Of a DNA stretch of 64,000 nt, positions 2,277 through 11,883 are shown one piece after another. The stretch comes from Streptomyces coeruleorubidus (lineage in GTDB: Bacteria > Actinomycetota > Actinomycetes > Streptomycetales > Streptomycetaceae). The DNA is taken from the NCBI RefSeq assembly GCF_028885415.1, contig NZ_CP118527.1, positions 3,100,001 to 3,164,000 of the forward strand. Reading direction: 5' to 3'. The notes below the pieces were generated by a model. The model was not told the DNA's origin, did no database searches, and saw only the letters and a list, made by a program, of their open reading frames with translations. Each line of letters opens with the position of its first letter. Position 1 is the stretch's first letter. A program made the translations under genes and the position numbers.

Positions 2277-2306
2277 TCAGCGGGTCTCAGCGGGTCTCAG
2301 CGGGCG
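2277..2306. repeat. Three-copy 10-bp tandem repeat between convergent genes
   Basis: The unit TCAGCGGGTC occurs at 2277, 2287 and (last two bases changed) 2297. The third copy supplies the TCA that is the stop codon of the minus-strand gene. Short repeats like this can change the C-terminal end of the neighbour; no function is evident. Confidence 0.7.
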
Positions 2307-3250
2307 AACCAGCAGCGCACGGTCGTCCCGTCGTCTCCCCTGTGCACCCGCACCAGGTCGGCGATGAGGTTCACCAGCAGCAGCCCGCGTCCGCCGCGCT
2401 GGTCGCGGGGCACGGGCCGGCGCCCGGCCAGAAGATCCGCGAGCCGGCCTTCGTCGCGCACCTCGCACACCACGTACCCGTCCTCGGTCCACACCCGCAG
2501 CATCCCGCAGCCGCCGCCGTGCACCACGCTGTTGGTGGTGAGCTCGGCCACGGCGAGGGCCAGGTCGTCCAGCTTGACGCCGGTGAGTCCGAGCCGCGCG
2601 CCCTCCCCGGCGGCCACGTGCCGGGCCTGGGAGAGCGAGCCGGAGTCGAAGGAGAACGTCAGCGCGTTCGGCACGGCCGGCAGCGCCTCGTTGTAGCGGG
2701 CGACGACGTCCCCGGGGGCGTACGCGTCGCTGCCCTGCTCCAGCCGGGAGCCGGAGGGGATGACGGTCGGGTGGGTGGCGTGGGCGTCGGCGAGGACGCG
2801 CTCGGGGAGCTGCTCGATGTCGTACGGACACAGGATGGTCGCCGTACGGCCCCGGAAGGCGGCGTTGATGAGCGCCTCGTGCTGGACGCAGGCGGGGTAC
2901 TCGGTGTCGGAGCGCCCGGCCCAGATGGGCTCGCCGATGATCCGCACCCGGCGTCCGGGCGGCTGGGCGTCGGCGAACGCGCGTAGCACGCCGGGAATGA
3001 TCCGCCCGGGGTTGCGGCCGGCCTCGCACATGTCCAGGAGCCGCACCGCCTCGGCGGCCTCGCCCAGCGCGTCCCGGATCAGCGCGAGGTTCTTGCCGGG
3101 CACCGCGACGGCCACGGGGTCGCCGGCCGCCAGGCCCTCGCGCACGAAGGGCACGGTGACGCCGAGGTACTCGTCCTCGTCGCGGTAGAAGAGCGCGGGG
3201 TGGACGAAGGGTTCCAGGGGGCCGAAGGGTTCGGCCTCGACAGCGGTCAT
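2297..3250 (-). CDS. MEDS-domain / HATPase anti-sigma-type regulator
   Basis: 317 residues from the ATG at 3250. The first ~170 residues resemble the MEDS (DcmR-sensory) domain: a RecA-like fold beginning PFVHPALFYRDEDEYLG, with HEALINAAFRG and LCPYDIEQLP. The C-terminal ~120 residues are a GHKL ATPase of the RsbW type with N-box ELTTNSVVHG, G1 region VRDEG and G2 region GGRGLLLVNLIADL. Such proteins bind ATP and partner-switch with STAS proteins or sigma factors. Its ATG overlaps the stop of the upstream STAS gene as ATGA (3250-3247), so the two are translationally coupled and probably act as a pair. Target sigma factor unknown. Confidence 0.85.
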   Translation of the reverse strand: MTAVEAEPFGPLEPFVHPALFYRDEDEYLGVTVPFVREGLAAGDPVAVAVPGKNLALIRDALGEAAEAVRLLDMCEAGRNPGRIIPGVLRAFADAQPPGRRVRIIGEPIWAGRSDTEYPACVQHEALINAAFRGRTATILCPYDIEQLPERVLADAHATHPTVIPSGSRLEQGSDAYAPGDVVARYNEALPAVPNALTFSFDSGSLSQARHVAAGEGARLGLTGVKLDDLALAVAELTTNSVVHGGGCGMLRVWTEDGYVVCEVRDEGRLADLLAGRRPVPRDQRGGRGLLLVNLIADLVRVHRGDDGTTVRCWFAR

Positions 3251-3660
3251 GACACCGATACCTCGATCCCGGCGTGGTCGGGCCACAGCAGCTCCAGCGT
3301 CCGCCGCAGGGCCGGCGGCGGCCGACGCACCACGAACCGCCGGCCGTCCCCGAGCTGCCCGGCGGCGGCCGCGAGCGCGCCCGCGCCCGCGACGTCGACG
3401 AACGTCACGTCGGACAACTCCAGGTAGTACACGTCCTCATCCTCGCGAACGGCCTGCTCCAGTACGCCTTCCCAGATCGCACGTGTCGTCAGGACGACCT
3501 CGCCCGCCGCCCGGACACCCTGCCGGCCGGACAGCGGGAACACCGCCAGGCCCGGCACGGGACCGCAGGCGCCGGCGGCCGGCACCCGATACTGAGTGTT
3601 CAAGCCCCTCTCCCCACGCTGGTGGACCACAGCGCTCGTACCCGTCCGGGCGAAGCTCAT
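3247..3660 (-). CDS. STAS-domain anti-sigma antagonist-like protein
   Basis: 137 residues from ATG 3660. STAS features: beta strand FPLSGR-x-GVRAAGEVVLTTRAIWE, then YYLELSDVTFVDVAGAGAL and a C-terminal helix. In RsbV/SpoIIAA the Ser before the conserved Gly of DSSG is phosphorylated; here the sequence is DVAG, with Ala, so classical phospho-switching is not possible. A TTG at 3603 preceded by a GGGGAGAGGGGC ribosome-site-like stretch is a possible alternative start that would remove ~19 residues. Coupled by ATGA overlap to the MEDS-HATPase gene; divergent from the STAS-ANTAR gene across 130 bp. Confidence 0.8.
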   Translation of the reverse strand: MSFARTGTSAVVHQRGERGLNTQYRVPAAGACGPVPGLAVFPLSGRQGVRAAGEVVLTTRAIWEGVLEQAVREDEDVYYLELSDVTFVDVAGAGALAAAAGQLGDGRRFVVRRPPPALRRTLELLWPDHAGIEVSVS

Positions 3661-3790: not shown

Positions 3791-4486
3791 ATGACGTCAG
3801 CGGCATCACCACATCGCACAGGAGGGCTGAACACACTGGTCATCAGTGGCCGCGTGAGCGCGGACCGGGCCGAGCTCACCCCGTGTGGTGAGCTGGTTCA
3901 CGGCTGCGCGGAAACACTGACCAGGACCCTGGCCGAGCTGCCGCCCACGATCACGCGGGTGGACCTGGACATGGGGGGCGTGCACTTCATGGACACGGCG
4001 GGTCTGCAGTTCCTCGACGTGCTGGGCGACTTCGCCCGTCGGCGTTTTGCGACGGTCACGACCACGAACTGGAACGGCCAGCCGCGCCGGATCCTGGAAC
4101 TGGCGGGCCTGGACACGACCGACCCCCTGCGCGCCGCGCCCCACCCCGACCCGGAGCCCGCCCAGCCGTCGGCCCCGGCCTCCTCCGCGGTCGCAGTGGA
4201 ACGCGCGGAGCGCCTGCACGTCCTCGAGGAGGAGGTCGAGCAGCTCCGCCAGGCCATCGCCTCCCGCCCGGTCATCGACCAGGCCCGGGGCATCCTCATG
4301 GCCACCCACGGCTGCACGTCCGACGAGGCCTGGCACGTCCTGCGCGAGACGTCCCAGCTCTCCAACACCAAGCTCCGCGACGTGGCCGCCGCCGTGACGG
4401 CCAGCGCGAAACCCGACGGCCCCCGCCCGTCCCCCGCCCTCCGCGAGGCCCTGCAGCAAGCCCTCACCCGCCGCCGCCGAACCTGA
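3791..4486 (+). CDS. STAS-ANTAR fusion regulator
   Basis: 231 residues. Residues ~10-110 form a STAS domain (LVISGRVSADRAE, HFMDTAGLQFLDVLGDF); a Pro/Ala linker follows and then an ANTAR RNA-binding domain (~145-200: RPVIDQARGILMATHGCTSDEAWHVL, read as separate helices). ANTAR proteins bind paired hexanucleotide hairpins in nascent RNA and cause antitermination, so this gene links a partner-switch input to transcription elongation. The phospho-Ser position is Ala (DTAG), as in the divergent STAS protein. The ATG at 3791 has a GAGGGCGG upstream; an AGGAGG lies inside the frame at ~3822, but no good start codon follows it. Confidence 0.85.
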   Translation: MTSAASPHRTGGLNTLVISGRVSADRAELTPCGELVHGCAETLTRTLAELPPTITRVDLDMGGVHFMDTAGLQFLDVLGDFARRRFATVTTTNWNGQPRRILELAGLDTTDPLRAAPHPDPEPAQPSAPASSAVAVERAERLHVLEEEVEQLRQAIASRPVIDQARGILMATHGCTSDEAWHVLRETSQLSNTKLRDVAAAVTASAKPDGPRPSPALREALQQALTRRRRT

Positions 4487-4822
4487 GACCGAGCCCGGGA
4501 ATCCGCCCCCTCGCCGTCGGCCCCGTACGCCATCGGCCGGGCCTCAGCCCGCTGAGCGGCACCCTGCCGACGGCTGCCGCGCCCATGCCGTCCTCGTGGA
4601 GAGCCTGCGCTCGACGGGCCCTGATCCGCCACCGGGCCCGGGTCCGCTCGCCCCGGCCACGGTGCTCCGGGGCCCACGGGGGTACTCGGCCGGCCACGGC
4701 CGGAGCGCGGCACACGGCCGCTCCGGTTCCGAGGAGGACGACACCGACTCCCAGGAGGTGTTCCGACGCGGCCCCGGCCCGCATGCACGGGCCACCGCGC
4801 AACCTGACGTACCGTCCTCGCT
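4487..4822. other. 336-bp gap with two mutually exclusive GC hairpins
   Basis: No supported gene. It contains CCGGCC-AC-GGCCGG (4690-4703) and CCGGAGCG...CGCTCCGG (4700-4707 with 4719-4726, 11-nt loop). The two stems share CCGG at 4700-4703, so only one can form at a time. At the 3' end a TACCGT (4810-4815) stands 7 nt before the GTG at 4823, a leaderless-type promoter for the next gene. Confidence 0.4.
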
Positions 4823-5860
4823 GTGAGCGATGCACCTCCCGCGAACACCCGACGAGCGCCCTCCGCGCGCGCGGTGATCGGCGACGATCCGGCGCTGCGG
4901 GCGGCCTACGGGCTGTGCCGGCGCCGGACCAGGGAGCAGGACCCGGCGGAGTACGCGCTGATCCAGCTGGTGCCCGCGGCGCTGCGCCCGGCCTGCTGGG
5001 CCCTGTGGGCGGCGGCCAACGCGCTCGACGACCTGGGCGACGACCGCACGGTGCCCGCCGCCGGACGGGCCGCCCGGGTCGAGGAGTGGATCACCGCCCT
5101 GCACCGCGAACTGCCCACCGGCACGAGCCCGGACCCGATCCGCCACGCCCTGGTCGACACCGCGGCCCGCTGGCGCCTGGACCTGTCCGAGCTGCACGGC
5201 GCCATGGTCCAGGTCCAGGACGACACCCACGGCAGACACTTCGCCGACTGGGCCGCGTGGCGCACCTGGGGCCGGGACAATCTGCTGCCCTGGTTCGGCC
5301 AGGTCCGCACCCTCTTCGACCGGGCCGGCGTCCCCGTGGCACTGCGTCTGGACGCCAGGGAGACCTACGAGGAGTTCCTGGACGGCGTGCGGCTCACGGA
5401 CATCCTCACCGACCTGTCCGCCGACCTCGCCCAGGGCGACCTCCTCCTGCCCGACGAGGCCCTGAAGCCCTACCCCGGGGCCGCGGACGACCTGGCGCAG
5501 CGGCGCTGGAGCCCCGCCGTCGCCGCCCTGGTCACGCAGCTGACCGGCCTGGCCCGCCAGTGGGTGACCCAGGACGGCCTCGACCGCGGCATGCACCCCG
5601 GGCCCGCCACCGTCCTGCACACCATGGCCGCCCTGCTGCGCGCCCAGCTCGACGCGATCGGCTCGGCCGGCCCGGCCCTCCTGCGGCGCCCGCCCCGGCC
5701 CGCGCTCCACGCCCGGGCCCGCGTCCTCGTCCCGGCCCGGGCCCGCGCCGCCCTGGCCTGGAGCTTGACCCCGCTGACGGTGCCGCCCGCACGGCCCGCC
5801 GGGCACGGCAGCCCGCCCCCGGCCGACCGGACGGCACGCACCCGGACCTTCCGCCCCCCC
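4823..5860 (+). CDS. Squalene/phytoene-synthase-like domain, 5' part of a frameshifted fusion
   Basis: From GTG 4823 about 300 residues resemble head-to-head prenyl synthases: helix PACWALWAAANALDDLGDD with the first Asp-rich motif, and RLTDILTDLSADLAQGDLLLP matching the second motif region. The family joins two prenyl diphosphates to presqualene/prephytoene diphosphate. After the domain the same frame has no stop until 7009, but its codon third-position GC collapses exactly at the C7 tract 5854-5860, where the +1 frame takes over with an UppS domain. The literal reading would be a 728-residue protein with an artefactual tail overlapping two other genes. I therefore end this part at 5860. A TACCGT 7 nt upstream suggests a leaderless mRNA. 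Confidence 0.7.
5854..5860 (+). other. C7 tract at the frame switch between synthase and UppS domains
   Basis: Seven consecutive C. Left of it the frame of 4823 has high GC3 (codons such as CGC CCC); right of it that frame becomes CGA, CCA, GGA, CAT while the +1 frame becomes CAC CCC GAC GGC CAC. Dropping one C joins both into one frame reading FRPPPHPDGHRPPDIPPDR. This marks a sequencing error, a phase-variable tract, or a +1 recoding site. Confidence 0.75.
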
Positions 5861-5924
5861 TCCGCACCCCGACGGCCACCGGCCCCCGGACATCCCGCCG
5901 GACCGGCTCCCCGCCCACGTCGCC

Positions 5925-6626
5925 GTGATCATGGACGGCAACGGCCGCTGGGCCCAGCAGCGCGGCCTGTCCCGGCACGAAGGACACCGGGCCGGCGCCG
6001 CCGCCGTCCGCGAGGTGGTGCACGGCGCCCTGGACATCGGCCTGCGGCACCTGACGCTCTACACCTTCTCCACCGAGAACTGGCACCGCGACCCCGAGGA
6101 GGTCGACGCGATCCTCGACCTCGTGCGCCGCGAGGTCGTCGACAACCCCTTCCGCGACCTCGACGTCCGGCTGCGCTGGCACGGCCGCACCGGCCGCCTG
6201 CCGCCCGACCTGTCCGACCTCCTCGACCGGCGGGAGCGCGGCACCCGCACCCGCACCGGCCTGACGCTGACGATGTGCATCGACTACGGCGGCCGCGACG
6301 AGCTCACCCGCACCGCCGCCGCCCTCGCCCGCCGGGCCCGGGCCGGCCATCTCGACCCCGACCTGATCGGCGAGGAGGACTTCGCGCGGCACCTGCCCCA
6401 TCCGGACATGCCGGACGTCGACCTGCTCTGGCGCACCGGCAACGAGCAGCGCACCTCCAACTTCCTGCCCTGGCACACCGCCTACGCCGAGCTGCACTTC
6501 ACCCCGGAGCTCTGGCCCGACACCGACCGCCGCCACCTGTGGCAGGCGATCACCACGTACACCCACCGCCAACGCCGCCACGGCACCGCTCCGACGGGCA
6601 CCCCGGGAGGTCCGGTCAGCCGGTGA
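5925..6626 (+). CDS. uppS: Isoprenyl (undecaprenyl) diphosphate synthase, cis-prenyltransferase
   Basis: Family signatures are intact: MDGNGRWA (substrate Asp), GHRAGA, STENW, RTGNEQRTSNFLPW and AYAELHF. UppS condenses IPP onto FPP to make the C55 carrier for peptidoglycan. The first usable start in frame is GTG 5925 (or ATG 5931), which begins at the active site, yet the frame is coding upstream too: codons 5883-5924 read PPDIPPDRLPAHVA, the normal UppS N-terminus. No ATG, GTG or TTG exists between the in-frame stop at 5775 and 5925. The N-terminus is thus supplied by the upstream frame through a shift at the C7 tract, or it is lost. The 3' end overlaps the convergent RraA-like gene by 11 bp. 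Confidence 0.82.
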   Translation: MIMDGNGRWAQQRGLSRHEGHRAGAAAVREVVHGALDIGLRHLTLYTFSTENWHRDPEEVDAILDLVRREVVDNPFRDLDVRLRWHGRTGRLPPDLSDLLDRRERGTRTRTGLTLTMCIDYGGRDELTRTAAALARRARAGHLDPDLIGEEDFARHLPHPDMPDVDLLWRTGNEQRTSNFLPWHTAYAELHFTPELWPDTDRRHLWQAITTYTHRQRRHGTAPTGTPGGPVSR

Positions 6627-7230
6627 AGCCCTGCTCGCTCAGCGCCTTCTCGATGCGGGCACGGTGGTTCGCCTCCCAGGCGTCGAGGGACTCCTCGGCC
6701 TCCTTGGCCAGTTTCGCCCGGGCAGCGGCGAGGATCTCCTCCCGGCGGGCGGCGGGAGTGACGACGATGCCCTCCTCGTCGGCGACGACGATGTCGCCGG
6801 GGTGCACGAGCACGCCGCCGACACGGGCCGGCTCACCGAGCGCGCCGGCCTTCTCCTTGGTTCCTGGGATCGGGATGACACCGCGCGAGAAGACGGGAAA
6901 GCCCGCCTCGCGCACCTCCCCGAGGTCGCGGATGACACCGTCGACCACGAAGGCCGCGACACCCCGGCGCTGGGCGACGGCGCACACGTTGCCGCCGGCC
7001 AGCGCGTAGTCCACGTCGCCCGACTCCACGACGATGACCGAGCCGGGCTCGGCGCGGTAGATCGCGGCGTGCAGCATCAGGTTGTCGCCGGGCACGCACC
7101 GCACGGTGTACGCGGGACCCGCGATGCGGGGCGAGTTCCACAACGGACGGATGCCGGTGTCCATGACCTGCTCACGGCCCAGCAGATCGGCGAGGGTGGT
7201 GGGGGGTACGTCCTCGAAGGCAGAAGTCAC
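6616..7230 (-). CDS. RraA-like protein / HMG-CHA-type aldolase family
   Basis: 204 residues from GTG 7230 (VTSAFEDVPPTTLADLLG), the size of the RraA/MenG fold. Recognisable are GDNLMLHAAIYRAEPGSVIVV, the segment GGNVCAVAQRRGVAAFVVDG and the metal/substrate loop VIRDLGEV, where the Arg-Asp pair is conserved in 4-hydroxy-4-methyl-2-oxoglutarate/4-carboxy-4-hydroxy-2-oxoadipate aldolases. The same fold in E. coli RraA inhibits RNase E, so both roles remain possible; the conserved RD favours an aldolase. A longer start at 7308 exists but that extension looks non-coding. It lies divergent from a PanE-type reductase across 103 bp, suggesting a small catabolic locus. Confidence 0.82.
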   Translation of the reverse strand: MTSAFEDVPPTTLADLLGREQVMDTGIRPLWNSPRIAGPAYTVRCVPGDNLMLHAAIYRAEPGSVIVVESGDVDYALAGGNVCAVAQRRGVAAFVVDGVIRDLGEVREAGFPVFSRGVIPIPGTKEKAGALGEPARVGGVLVHPGDIVVADEEGIVVTPAARREEILAAARAKLAKEAEESLDAWEANHRARIEKALSEQGFTG

Positions 7231-7333
7231 ACCGGGAATCCAAGCAACAGGGCACCAGCCGACGCCACTTGGTTTCCGCCGGTGCCCGCGGGATGCTCGG
7301 CACGACACCTGAAGCGGAGAGCCGGGGAGCGGA

Positions 7334-8402: not shown

Positions 8403-9176
8403 ATGGCGTTGTCCATCTGGGAAGCACTGGCCGTTCTCGCAGCCGGCATCGGCGCGGGCACGATCAACACCATCGTCGGTTCCGGCACCCTGATCACCTT
8501 CCCGGTACTGCTTGCCACCGGGCTGCCGCCGATCACAGCCAACGTCTGCAACGCCCTCGGTCTCGTCCCCGGCTCCATCAGCGGAGCCATCGGCTACCGC
8601 GCCGAACTCCGCGGACAGAGCCGCCGCGCACTCGTCCTCGGTCTCACCGCGCTCGTCGGCGGACTCGGCGGAGCCGTCCTGCTCCTCGCCCTGCCCTCCG
8701 AGGCCTTCGACACGATCGTCCCCGTACTGATCGCTCTGGCGCTCGTGCTCGTACTGCTCCAGCCACGCCTCGCCAAAGCCCTACAGCGCCGCCGCGCGAA
8801 CAAAGGCACCGCCGGCCGCCCGCACGGCGGCCCCTTCCTCCTGGTAGGACTGCTCCTCGCGAGCGGGTACGGCGGCTACTTCGGCGCCGCCCAAGGGGTC
8901 CTGTACCTCTCCCTGATGGGCCTGTTCCTCGACGAGGACCTGCAGCGCGTCAACGCCGTCAAGAACATCCTCGGAGCCGTCGTCAACGGCGTCGCCGCCT
9001 GCTTCTTCCTCTTCGTCGCCGAGTTCGACTGGACGGCGGTCCTGCTCATCGCCGTCGGCTCCGCCCTAGGCGGGCAGATCGGCGCCAAGGTCGGCCGCCG
9101 CCTCAGGCCCACCGCCCTGCGCGCCGTCATCGTCGCCGTCGGCATCATCGCGATCGTGCAGCTCCTGCTGCGCTGA
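8403..9176 (+). CDS. TauE/SafE (TSUP) family membrane permease
   Basis: 257 residues from ATG 8403, with TAAGGAG just upstream. About eight hydrophobic segments in two related halves are visible; the N-terminal half has GAGTINTIVGSGTLITFPVLL and the second half GYGGYFGAAQGVLYLSLMGL, characteristic of TSUP transporters. Members export or import sulfonates, sulfite, sulfoacetate or other organic anions. Downstream of the PanE-type gene (70 bp) and under the palindrome at 8330; likely moves the substrate or product of that pathway. Its last 32 bp overlap the convergent dehydrogenase-NTF2 gene. Confidence 0.88.
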   Translation: MALSIWEALAVLAAGIGAGTINTIVGSGTLITFPVLLATGLPPITANVCNALGLVPGSISGAIGYRAELRGQSRRALVLGLTALVGGLGGAVLLLALPSEAFDTIVPVLIALALVLVLLQPRLAKALQRRRANKGTAGRPHGGPFLLVGLLLASGYGGYFGAAQGVLYLSLMGLFLDEDLQRVNAVKNILGAVVNGVAACFFLFVAEFDWTAVLLIAVGSALGGQIGAKVGRRLRPTALRAVIVAVGIIAIVQLLLR

Positions 9177-10329
9177 CACCTCGGTGATAAGCCTTGTTGG
9201 CGATGCGCCAGCCGTCGTCGACGCGGACGAGCAGGAAGACGTCGGTGAACGTGTCCGCGCCGTGCGAGAGCGTCATGGTCGCGGTCGCGACGGTGCCGTG
9301 GACGTCGATGGCGTCGACGCGGCGGGAGCGGGTCGGTTCGTCCGGGGCCGGACGGCCGTGGAAGAGAGCGCAGTACTCCTCCAGGGGCCACGAGACGAAT
9401 GCGCCGTCCCGGATTCCCTCGATGTGGGCGGTGGGCAGGAACGCGTCGCGGAAGTGGGCGGGATCGCCGGTGGCGTGCCCGCGGATGTAGGCGCGGAGCG
9501 GTTCGAGCACGGCGTCGTCCACGGCGGGGACCATGGCGGCGACGGCGATGTCGGCCTCAGGGTCGGCAGGGGTGTCAGCCACATTGGCCGCGCTGCGCAG
9601 GGGCGTGTCCGACGCGGCGGCCAGCAGAGCCATGTCCTTGGCCAGCGCGCCGATCGTGAATTCGGCCGTGTCGGCACCCGCCTGGCCGGTGAGGAAGGGG
9701 CGTTTGCGGGCCACGAGCCCGCCGAGCGGGCCGAGTTCGAGGACGTCCAGCGCCTGGGCGCGGGGCAGGCCGAGGGCGTCGGCTTGTCGCAGTGAGTCGC
9801 GCAGGGCGAGGACGGCGCCGGCGAGGCTGTTGTTGGCGATCAGCTTGAGTGCGGCGGCGGTGGAGGCGTCGTCGACGCGCCGCACGGTGCCCAGCGTTTC
9901 CAGGACCGGTCGGACCCGGTCGAGCGTGTCCTGTTCGGCGGCGGCGAGAATCTGCAGGGCGCCGCCGGCGGCAGCCGGCACGGAGCCGAGCACGGGCGCG
10001 TGGACGTAGGTGGGGCCCAGTCGCCTGGCCAGCTGTGACGCCTCGGCGGGGGCGATGGTGCTGGTGTTCAGCACGACCGTGTCCGCCCTCAGCGAGTCAC
10101 GAACGTCGTCGAGGACCTGCCGGCAGGCCGGACCGTCGAACAACGCCAGGAGCACGAGGTCGGCCTTGGCCACGGCGTCGTTCGGAACGCCCGTCGTCCT
10201 GACGGCTCCTGAGGTGCGCCCGGAGCGTGTCCAGCCGACGACGTCCCAGCCCTGGGCAGCCAGTCGGGTCGCGATCGCGTCGCCCATGCGCCCCAAGCCG
10301 AGGACGGCGATCGTGTGCGGTGTGGTCAT
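9145..10329 (-). CDS. Beta-hydroxyacid dehydrogenase-like protein fused to an NTF2-like domain
   Basis: 394 residues from ATG 10329. Residues ~1-270 are a 3-hydroxyisobutyrate/6-phosphogluconate-type dehydrogenase: VLGLGRMGDAIATRLA Rossmann loop, NTSTIAP, HAPVLGSVPAAAGG and the catalytic-Lys helix AALKLIANNSLAGAVLA. Residues ~285-394 form a separate NTF2/lumazine-binding-like domain (AVDDAVLEPLRAYIRGHATGD, FLPTAHIEGIRDG, VFLLVRVDDGWRIANKAYH). That second domain normally stands alone; the fusion is unusual. Divergent from a LysR gene that probably controls it, and convergent with the TauE/SafE gene with a 32-bp overlap. Substrate unknown. Confidence 0.85.
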   Translation of the reverse strand: MTTPHTIAVLGLGRMGDAIATRLAAQGWDVVGWTRSGRTSGAVRTTGVPNDAVAKADLVLLALFDGPACRQVLDDVRDSLRADTVVLNTSTIAPAEASQLARRLGPTYVHAPVLGSVPAAAGGALQILAAAEQDTLDRVRPVLETLGTVRRVDDASTAAALKLIANNSLAGAVLALRDSLRQADALGLPRAQALDVLELGPLGGLVARKRPFLTGQAGADTAEFTIGALAKDMALLAAASDTPLRSAANVADTPADPEADIAVAAMVPAVDDAVLEPLRAYIRGHATGDPAHFRDAFLPTAHIEGIRDGAFVSWPLEEYCALFHGRPAPDEPTRSRRVDAIDVHGTVATATMTLSHGADTFTDVFLLVRVDDGWRIANKAYHRGVSAAGAARSR

Positions 10330-10424
10330 GCACGCCAGCGTGAGGCACCGCGATGGCTGCGACAAGCGCAGATCTCGCAGACCGGCCCTGCGGGATGCGC
10401 ATACCGCATGGGCATACTGGCGTC

Positions 10425-11351
10425 ATGGAGTTGACGGTGTGGCGGACCTTCGTGACCGTGTGCCGGCTCGGGTCGCTGTCGGCGGCGGCCGCCGAGCTCA
10501 ATCACACGCAGTCGGCCGTCTCCCGGCAGATCGCCGGACTGGAGCGGCAACTCGGCGTGCTTCTGATGGAGCGCCATGCGCGCGGTGTGCGTCCGACACC
10601 TGCCGGCGAGGTGTTCCGGCGCCACGCCCTGGCCACGCTCAACGAGGCCGACCGTGCCGTCCGCGCCGCACGAGACGCTCGCGACGGCGCGCTCGATCGG
10701 CCGCTGGCCGTCGGTGCCACACCCTCTCTGGCCGCGGGAATCGTCCCCGAGGCCGTCCGGGACCTGCTGAAGCAAACCGGATCCGTCCCGTGGAGCCTGC
10801 TGCCGGGCCTGAGCGCACAACTGCACAACCGCGTGATCGCCGGCGATCTCGACATCGCTGTCGTCACCGACGCACCACCAGGGCTGCCCCACGACCCGCG
10901 GCTCGAACGACGGTTCCTCGGGCTGGACGACATGGTCGTCGCACTGCCCGTCGGCCATCCGCAGGCCGGGCGAGACCCGGTGCGCATACAGACGCTGGCC
11001 GACCAGACCTGGGTCGAGGACAACGACGGCTCGGCGGCTCTCCTGCGCCAGCACGCCGCCCGCGCCGGAGTCAGCGCCCGCATCGACCTCTCCGCGGCCG
11101 ATCTGCTCGGCAAGCTGGCCCTGGTCGCGACCGGCCACGCCATCGCGCTGATACCCGGCGTGCTGACGTGCGCCCTGCGGACCGACGTCACCACCGTGGC
11201 CCTCGTCGATCCCCCGACCCGCGGCATCTACACGATCACACCACGCCGCGACCCCCACCCTTGCGCAGCGCCCCTGCTCGACCAGCTCGCCACAGCCTTC
11301 ACCTCGGTCCGTGAGCCGCGCACCCAGGCCCGGCTCAACCGGACGGCGTGA
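10425..11351 (+). CDS. LysR-family transcriptional regulator
   Basis: 308 residues from ATG 10425. N-terminal winged helix: MELTVWRTFVTVCRLGSLSAAAAELNHTQSAVSRQIAGLE in two helices typical of LysR, then a periplasmic-binding-type effector domain (VGATPSLAAGIVPEAVRDLL, GDLDIAVVTD). Divergent from the dehydrogenase-NTF2 gene over 95 bp, the classical LysR arrangement. The spacer holds ATGCGCAT (10395-10402) and ATGGGCAT (10408-10415), a repeated near-palindromic half-site. CATACT sits 6 nt before the ATG, suggesting a leaderless transcript. Its end overlaps the convergent GNAT gene by 17 bp. Confidence 0.87.
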   Translation: MELTVWRTFVTVCRLGSLSAAAAELNHTQSAVSRQIAGLERQLGVLLMERHARGVRPTPAGEVFRRHALATLNEADRAVRAARDARDGALDRPLAVGATPSLAAGIVPEAVRDLLKQTGSVPWSLLPGLSAQLHNRVIAGDLDIAVVTDAPPGLPHDPRLERRFLGLDDMVVALPVGHPQAGRDPVRIQTLADQTWVEDNDGSAALLRQHAARAGVSARIDLSAADLLGKLALVATGHAIALIPGVLTCALRTDVTTVALVDPPTRGIYTITPRRDPHPCAAPLLDQLATAFTSVREPRTQARLNRTA

Positions 11352-11883
11352 CCGAGGACCACACGCCGAACCACTGCTCGGCGCCGTACTCCTCGAACCG
11401 CTCCACCTCGGTGAACCCCAGCTTCGCCGCGAGGCGCATCGCGCGGTCGTTGGCGGTCTGGGTGCAGAGCACCACCGGCTCGCCGGGAAGGGCGTCGGCG
11501 AACCAGTCGAGTGCCGCCGCGCACGCCTCGGCGGCGTACCCGCGTCCCCACGCCTGAGGCAGGAGCAGGTAACCGAGCTCGGCCTCCCCGGCATCCGGAC
11601 GGACATGACCCGGGCGCTCCGCATCGCGCCGGTCGAGCGTGACCATGCCGATCATCGCTCCGTCGAGATCGATCACGAACAGGCCAGGGCGCCGCCCGGG
11701 CACATCGGGCACCGCGCGTTCGAGCTCATCCCGCGGTCGAGAGCCACCGATGTAGGTGCCCACCTCCGGCGATGCGAACAGCTCGATGAACGCCGCACGG
11801 TCCCGGGCCTCGGACTCGCGCAGCACGAGCCGTTCGGTCCTTAACGGGGCTGGTGGCCAGGCGACAGGTCCGAGTCCGGTCAT
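11335..11883 (-). CDS. GNAT-family N-acetyltransferase (RimJ/RimL-like)
   Basis: 182 residues from ATG 11883. Typical start of the family, PLRTERLVLRESEARDRAAFIELFASPEVGTYIGG read across helices, then GMVTLDRRD, AELGYLLLPQAWGRGYAAEAC (the acetyl-CoA pyrophosphate loop RGYAAEA) and the C-terminal NDRAMRLAAKLGFTEVERF. It transfers acetyl from acetyl-CoA to an amine, possibly a protein N-terminus. TAGGTT (11891-11896, minus) lies 7 nt before the ATG, a leaderless-type promoter. It overlaps the convergent LysR gene by 17 bp. Confidence 0.85.
   Translation of the reverse strand: MTGLGPVAWPPAPLRTERLVLRESEARDRAAFIELFASPEVGTYIGGSRPRDELERAVPDVPGRRPGLFVIDLDGAMIGMVTLDRRDAERPGHVRPDAGEAELGYLLLPQAWGRGYAAEACAAALDWFADALPGEPVVLCTQTANDRAMRLAAKLGFTEVERFEEYGAEQWFGVWSSVTPSG

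Follow-up and report, generated by a model that had tools for sequence, protein, structure and literature searches.

The locus analysed here raises the question of whether two prenyl-chain enzymes that lie in different reading frames on either side of a short cytosine run are the halves of one protein and, if so, why the frame is interrupted. It is located in a window of 64,000 nucleotides (positions 3100001-3164000) of a single-contig genome of 9.41 Mb that is listed as 99.99% complete. Taken as a whole, the data are best explained by a conserved fusion of a squalene/phytoene-synthase-like (SQS_PSY) domain with a UppS-type cis-prenyltransferase, which would act as a Z-prenyl diphosphate relay and whose frame has been broken in this copy by a recent mutation or an assembly error; we assign this reading a probability of roughly 0.6. 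The features of the locus are as follows (window coordinates).

4487..4822, no strand: short interval that separates the fusion from the STAS-ANTAR gene.
4823..5854, + strand: squalene/phytoene-synthase-like domain (PF00494), with start GTG at 4823 and both aspartate-rich motifs present.
5854..5861, + strand: C7 run (5854-5860) plus T, the site of the frame change according to the alignment to relatives.
5862..6626, + strand: UppS-type cis-prenyltransferase half (PF01255, TIGR00055), with the native N-terminal motif HPDGHRPP...LPAHVAVIMDGNGRW.
5861..7009, + strand: out-of-frame run-on of the synthase frame, spurious as judged by its overlap with an RraA-like gene on the opposite strand and by the GC position profile.
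6619-7308, - strand: the RraA-like gene (PF03737) overlapped by this run-on.

The first-pass annotation had described a synthase-like frame that runs from 4823 without a stop until 7009, which the list of open reading frames bears out, and a UppS frame that lacks a start after its last stop. This second description is also accurate: after TGA 5775, the UppS frame contains no ATG, GTG, TTG or CTG from 5778 to 5925, and the sole near-start in this interval is one ATC at 5892. The GC content by codon position in frame 0 is 0.79/0.58/0.96 at 4823-5853 versus 0.96/0.77/0.52 at 5861-6623. The reported move of the GC signature to the +1 frame was thus confirmed in that the GC-rich position moves by one base, but composition alone locates the switch only to approximately 5780-5900, the profile being mixed in the block 5783-5902; it was the alignment to relatives that located it at 5854-5861. 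As sequenced, the window copy therefore does not carry both domains in one open frame but is split at 5854-5861, and because the interruption lies at the domain joint, the full protein is not made by ordinary translation in this genome. A consensus scan detected no promoter or terminator near the gene.

The identity of each half is clear at the level of protein family. The synthase half, which uses the same start (GTG 4823) as the gene of S. coeruleorubidus ATCC 13740 (L053), consists of ~345 residues, and its PF00494 match spans residues 37-292 with a score of 58.6 bits, above the Pfam cut-off of 26. The other half matches the whole PF01255 family from 5925 (235.6 bits), exceeds the TIGR00055 cut-off of 109.55 (197.3 bits, compared with 209 for P0017, the fusion protein whose numbering is used below) and contains the motifs MDGNGRW, FSTENW and RTGNEQRTSN. 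The normal UppS N-terminus that had been noticed in the shifted frame is genuine, as a similar motif is present in another UppS of the same genome (L001). In the fusions, this native N-terminus forms the linker (PHPxGxRPP...LPxHVAVIMDGNGRW), and similar motifs are found in L001 and in the Aeromicrobium UppS proteins P0214 and P0231; the fusion point is therefore placed just before the linker, in a proline run. The frame break of the window copy falls within the proline codons at this point.

A scan of named genomes, in which the close matches belong to Streptomyces, established that the fused arrangement is the rule among relatives. Both domains were found in one alignment and one frame in 46 of the 54 loci, which substantiates the single synthase/cis-prenyltransferase fusion of ~600 residues proposed in the first-pass annotation, and separate stop and start codons at the joint, the arrangement that would have argued for two genes, were seen in none of these 46. 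Among the other eight loci, the linker of L035 is out of frame, L041, L045 and L077 run into a contig end, L058 contains an assembly gap, L074 and L082 have the synthase part only, and L087 (Lentzea) encodes a stand-alone synthase with an identity of only 26%. When the S. djakartensis fusion was used as a protein query, 308 matches were obtained, and the 120 listed all combine PF00494 with PF01255 in 574-648 aa; a search with the window synthase half yielded 173 matches, and again the 120 listed all contain both domains. The length rule used in both searches hides short stand-alone relatives, so these numbers do not represent a census of unfused forms. When the UppS half was searched in a length range that excludes fusions, the listed proteins contained PF01255 alone, and a few UppS proteins of or near the fusion type (P0133, P0137 and P0140; 73, 69 and 60% identical, respectively) are annotated alone on long contigs. 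The fused form may thus not be universal, and broken or unfused copies may occur elsewhere. No UppS motif was detected in the called frames of nine stand-alone synthase loci (3-4 kb each), where an unfused synthase-UppS pair was sought as a fusion intermediate.

The fusion is also not a peculiarity of this genome. A strong match to the synthase half was present in 7 of 60 same-genus genomes, with UppS downstream in frame in all seven (the 5' part of one of them, G026, is broken), and the synthase half was detected at E <= 1e-30 in 19 of 150 Streptomyces genomes in an even draw that included the window genome; uniqueness of the combination is thereby refuted. Fused copies are found in Saccharothrix, Actinosynnema, Actinokineospora and Embleya as well. 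Judged by sequence, the locus is a member of a conserved two-domain family consisting of SQS_PSY and a cis-prenyltransferase.

Comparison of the joint with those of the nearest intact copies, namely G166, whose synthase half is 94% identical at the protein level, and L053 (94% DNA identity), clarified the nature of the break. In this stretch, the window has a net deficit of two bases relative to both and an adjacent substitution, and the changes cluster in a C-rich segment of roughly a dozen bases. A net two-base loss plus a substitution relative to the nearest two copies indicates that C7 is the derived state. The earlier proposal that loss of one C would yield a ~600-residue fusion was therefore correct as to the fusion, its relatives being 574-648 aa long, but not as to the excess of one C, and a plain insertion of one C is disfavoured by the same two relatives. 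In the 105-base linker stretch of 45 one-frame relatives (45 of the 46 loci; L072 was left out because of its differing motif), the longest C run is 4 in 11, 5 in 30 and 6 in 4. Such tracts are rare in the window genome: runs of exactly seven C or G occur eight times in 424 kb, where none is longer.

These counts bear on the possibility that the gene is recoded or phase-variable, with a +1 shift at CCC codons or polymerase slippage partly restoring the fusion. A +1 shift is indeed what is required, and consecutive CCC codons, as found at the site, are prone to +1 shifting in bacteria. Nevertheless, none of the 45 measured one-frame relatives has C7; with C runs of 4-6, they need no shift, and the switch is present in one copy only. 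A conserved slippery tract was accordingly rejected, a conserved switch is unlikely, and the phase-variable gene suggested at first finds no counterpart in the relatives, in which the homopolymer tract is not kept. We regard recoding or phase variation of this gene as very improbable.

Another explanation is that the two halves are separate proteins, the UppS half being translated from GTG 5925 and functioning independently. The frame that begins at this GTG is 233 aa long and includes the whole of PF01255, and, as described above, some UppS proteins near the fusion type have stand-alone annotations. However, a start at this codon drops the conserved PHPxGxRPP...HVA segment, no ribosome-binding sequence is seen before it, and the frame continues through in 46 of the 54 relatives; we therefore consider this arrangement improbable as well.

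Substitution patterns were compared in order to weigh decay against recent breakage. The dN/dS values between the window copy and L053 are 0.42 for the SQS half and 0.28 for the UppS half. Against three other species, they are 0.38-0.48 and 0.27-0.37, respectively, and the corresponding values for the intact L053 against the same three species are 0.39-0.51 and 0.29-0.33. Decay of the UppS half thus finds no support, its dN/dS being like that of intact gene pairs, and neither does the decayed N-terminus that had been listed among the options, given the value of 0.28 against L053 and the retention of the native N-terminal motif in the UppS half. From these sequence comparisons, the break, if real, would be recent. 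Values well below 1 in both halves also favour recoding, as well as an error in the sequencing or assembly of this GC-rich, proline-coding stretch, in which case the strain has an intact fusion.

The clustering of the changes within about a dozen C-rich bases is a further point for such an error. So is the case of L035 (S. tuirus PHM034, 10001-11834), the only other shifted linker among the 54 loci: in the surrounding stretch, 20 of 35 query proteins are split, whereas the corresponding numbers are 1 of 33 for L053 and 1 of 25 for L043. Split query proteins were also found in L034 (16/30) and L066 (9/29), but this test is rough because part of L034 is masked and the genomes have overlapping sets of queries. 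On the other side, the window genome is a single contig listed as nearly complete, the difference at the joint goes beyond a simple homopolymer miscount in that a base is also substituted, and there is no excess of split genes. Frame-split proteins numbered 7 of 176 (fusion gene included) when 424 kb of the window genome was compared with 400 kb of S. coeruleorubidus and 6 of 173 in the reverse comparison, so the compared part of the window genome is not unusually rich in frameshifts, and general low assembly quality finds no support over this ~0.4 Mb. In one direction of comparison, 12 genes contained 13 out-of-frame stretches and, in the reverse direction, 15 genes contained 19; by our reading, most of them lie at gene ends with a differing start call. 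We give the assembly error somewhat less than even odds and place a real mutation slightly ahead of it; the window thus carries one copy of a widespread fusion whose frame either broke recently or is wrong in the assembly.

With regard to the function of the intact fusion, we know of no activity for any member. In an alignment of 53 fusions, both Asp-rich motifs of the SQS-like domain (D73/D77 and D201/D205) and the UppS motif residues D376, N378, R380, H393, S421, N424, R427, R542, R548, S550 and E561 are identical in all rows. We take D73, D77, D201, D205 and the series from D376 to E561 to be catalytic or binding positions, and their conservation suggests that both domains are probably active.

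The SQS-like half is related to several characterized synthases but distinct from each of them. Within the SQS_PSY family, it shares the two Asp-rich motifs with HpnC, HpnD, CrtM and CrtB, for none of which are we aware of a fused cis-prenyltransferase. In contrast to these enzymes, the fusion SQS halves were recovered as a clade of their own (support 100/99, 19 of 19 rows) in a tree of 48 rows, 47 of them different, that included only one of the genome's two other SQS_PSY proteins (L134 and L135) and from which L028 was left out as too short. Their scores are low: the window half reaches 58.6 bits against the NCBIfam cut-off of 278.6 for HpnD, 47.8 against 250.45 for HpnC and 33.8 against 550 for cyanobacterial CrtB. 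In addition, the Arg that HpnC and CrtM have at the position three residues upstream of the first Asp motif occurs in only 2 of 53 fusions, and the residue four before the second Asp motif, Asn in HpnC and CrtM, is Asp in 50 and Asn in 3 of the 53.

These features bear on another functional reading, which would not conflict with the fusion: that the domain acts as an ordinary head-to-head synthase and joins two prenyl diphosphates that the cis-prenyltransferase domain makes or shares. The first-pass annotation had called it a head-to-head synthase; the SQS_PSY domain is indeed present, but the scores lie far below the HpnC, HpnD and CrtB cut-offs and two positions are changed. PF00494 membership, both Asp-rich motifs and the fact that HpnC is the nearest solved structure by sequence speak for this function, whereas the scores of P0017 (56.0 bits against the cut-off of 278.6 for HpnD and 46.7 bits against 250.45 for HpnC) and the replacement of the HpnC/CrtM Arg and Asn in 51 and 50 of the 53 rows speak against it, and we consider it unlikely.

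After HpnC, the best-scoring solved relatives of the SQS half are the carbazole enzymes LvqB4 and CqsB4, with which it has the Arg loss and the replacement of the Asn by Asp in common; these differ from the fusions in that their PDB chains, of 360 and 333 residues, have no UppS part. The grouping of the fusions with CqsB4/LvqB4 in the tree is not firm (support 61/50). According to a review (PMC7466098), NzsG uses DMAPP to prenylate carbazole, and NzsG and CqsB4, which both act on carbazoles, keep the two Asp-rich motifs.

The UppS half resembles other UppS/cis-prenyltransferases (PF01255, TIGR00055) in its full domain, its motif residues and its native N-terminal PHPSGxRPP segment but differs from them in sitting behind another enzyme and in a shorter stretch that we take to be the helix-3 region. 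This stretch is 2 residues shorter (4 in L081 and L084) than in L001, P0214 and P0231, the only three housekeeping-type rows against which the difference is seen, the genome's other UppS (L002) having dropped out of the alignment; in two further rows with a housekeeping label, the gap is present (P0147) or absent (P0162). The helix-3 region of UppS influences chain length, and the shorter region may therefore be an indirect sign of a shorter product. The fusion UppS is the third copy in the genome, and as two further UppS genes are present (3190422-3191084, - strand, and 6306164-6306829, + strand), loss of the fused copy need not harm cell-wall synthesis.

If both domains are active, the UppS domain would make a short or medium Z-prenyl diphosphate, which the SQS-like domain would use within the same polypeptide, with acceptor prenylation or irregular coupling as a more likely step than squalene formation, and the product would go to or across the membrane. 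We thus tentatively propose a class of bifunctional isoprenoid synthases in which a Z-prenyl diphosphate would be passed to an SQS domain resembling the carbazole prenyltransferases, and the resulting lipid, prenylated or irregular, would be exported by dedicated ABC or MMPL transporters. Fungal prenyltransferase-terpene synthase chimeras are similar in that a maker of prenyl diphosphate is joined to the enzyme that uses it; their partners are a trans-prenyltransferase and a class I cyclase, whereas the present fusion joins a cis-prenyltransferase to an SQS-like domain, in actinobacteria.

Gene neighbourhoods were counted in 55 stretches, one for each of the 54 loci plus the initial 17 kb of the window. 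ABC-2 permease and ABC ATPase families are present in 20 and 18 of them, respectively, including those of the Pseudonocardiaceae loci L067 (permease) and L075 (permease and ATPase), and in one clade the gene order is ABC ATPase, ABC-2 permease and fusion. An MMPL exporter is located downstream of the fusion in S. acidiscabies (L081) and S. klenkii (L084) and also follows the Lentzea stand-alone synthase L087; the ~800-aa neighbour in these three loci had been considered as a terpene cyclase, a candidate rejected because it is an MMPL transporter. A BrkB-family membrane protein occurs in 12 of 55 stretches and often precedes the fusion in the clade of the window, and no ABC or MMPL transporter gene adjoins the window copy itself. 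That copies in different clades have membrane and export proteins as neighbours is compatible with a lipid product, as a hint and not as proof. The most frequent neighbours in the clade of the window are not transporters but RsbA (17/55), STAS-ANTAR (16/55) and MreB (14/55), which may reflect mere synteny.

We found no description of an SQS_PSY-UppS fusion in the open-licence literature searched, from which subscription papers are largely absent. The architecture itself is already in public databases: where names are given among the matches listed, they are mostly 'polyprenyl diphosphate synthase' or 'isoprenyl transferase', and such UppS-type names hide the N-terminal enzyme. Since the synthase half occurs in about one in eight of the sampled Streptomyces genomes, the fusion, which is of more interest than the frame break, offers a target for genome mining that combines one gene, an adjoining ABC transporter pair in one clade and a likely Z-prenyl precursor. 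The frame break is mainly a warning that this genome's copy should be re-read before use.

Several other observations were made in the surroundings of the fusion. The window copy is preceded by genes for an RsbA-type anti-sigma regulator (2297-3286, - strand) and a STAS-ANTAR protein (3791-4486, + strand). The junction between the latter and the fusion (window 4487-4822) appears as a spot of gene gain or loss: it is 0.3 kb long in the window and 1.8 kb in G166, and about 3.8 kb more is present in S. coeruleorubidus ATCC 13740, where the extra genes encode a protein without a Pfam family, a hemerythrin and a CtaG-like protein. In S. viridochromogenes DSM 40736, no gene is called in the junction, and the fusion is intact. 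In Lentzea atacamensis (L087:8749-13182), genes for a polyprenyl synthetase, the stand-alone SQS-like protein and the MMPL exporter stand in a row. An FAD-oxidoreductase-like region lies upstream of the fusion in S. klenkii (L084:8420-11767) within the same 1116-residue open frame and may be a separate gene without an intervening stop. Finally, an open frame at 9145-10365 (- strand) of the window pairs a 6-phosphogluconate-dehydrogenase-type NAD domain with a C-terminal lumazine-binding domain (PF12893), an unusual combination that may represent a second fusion.
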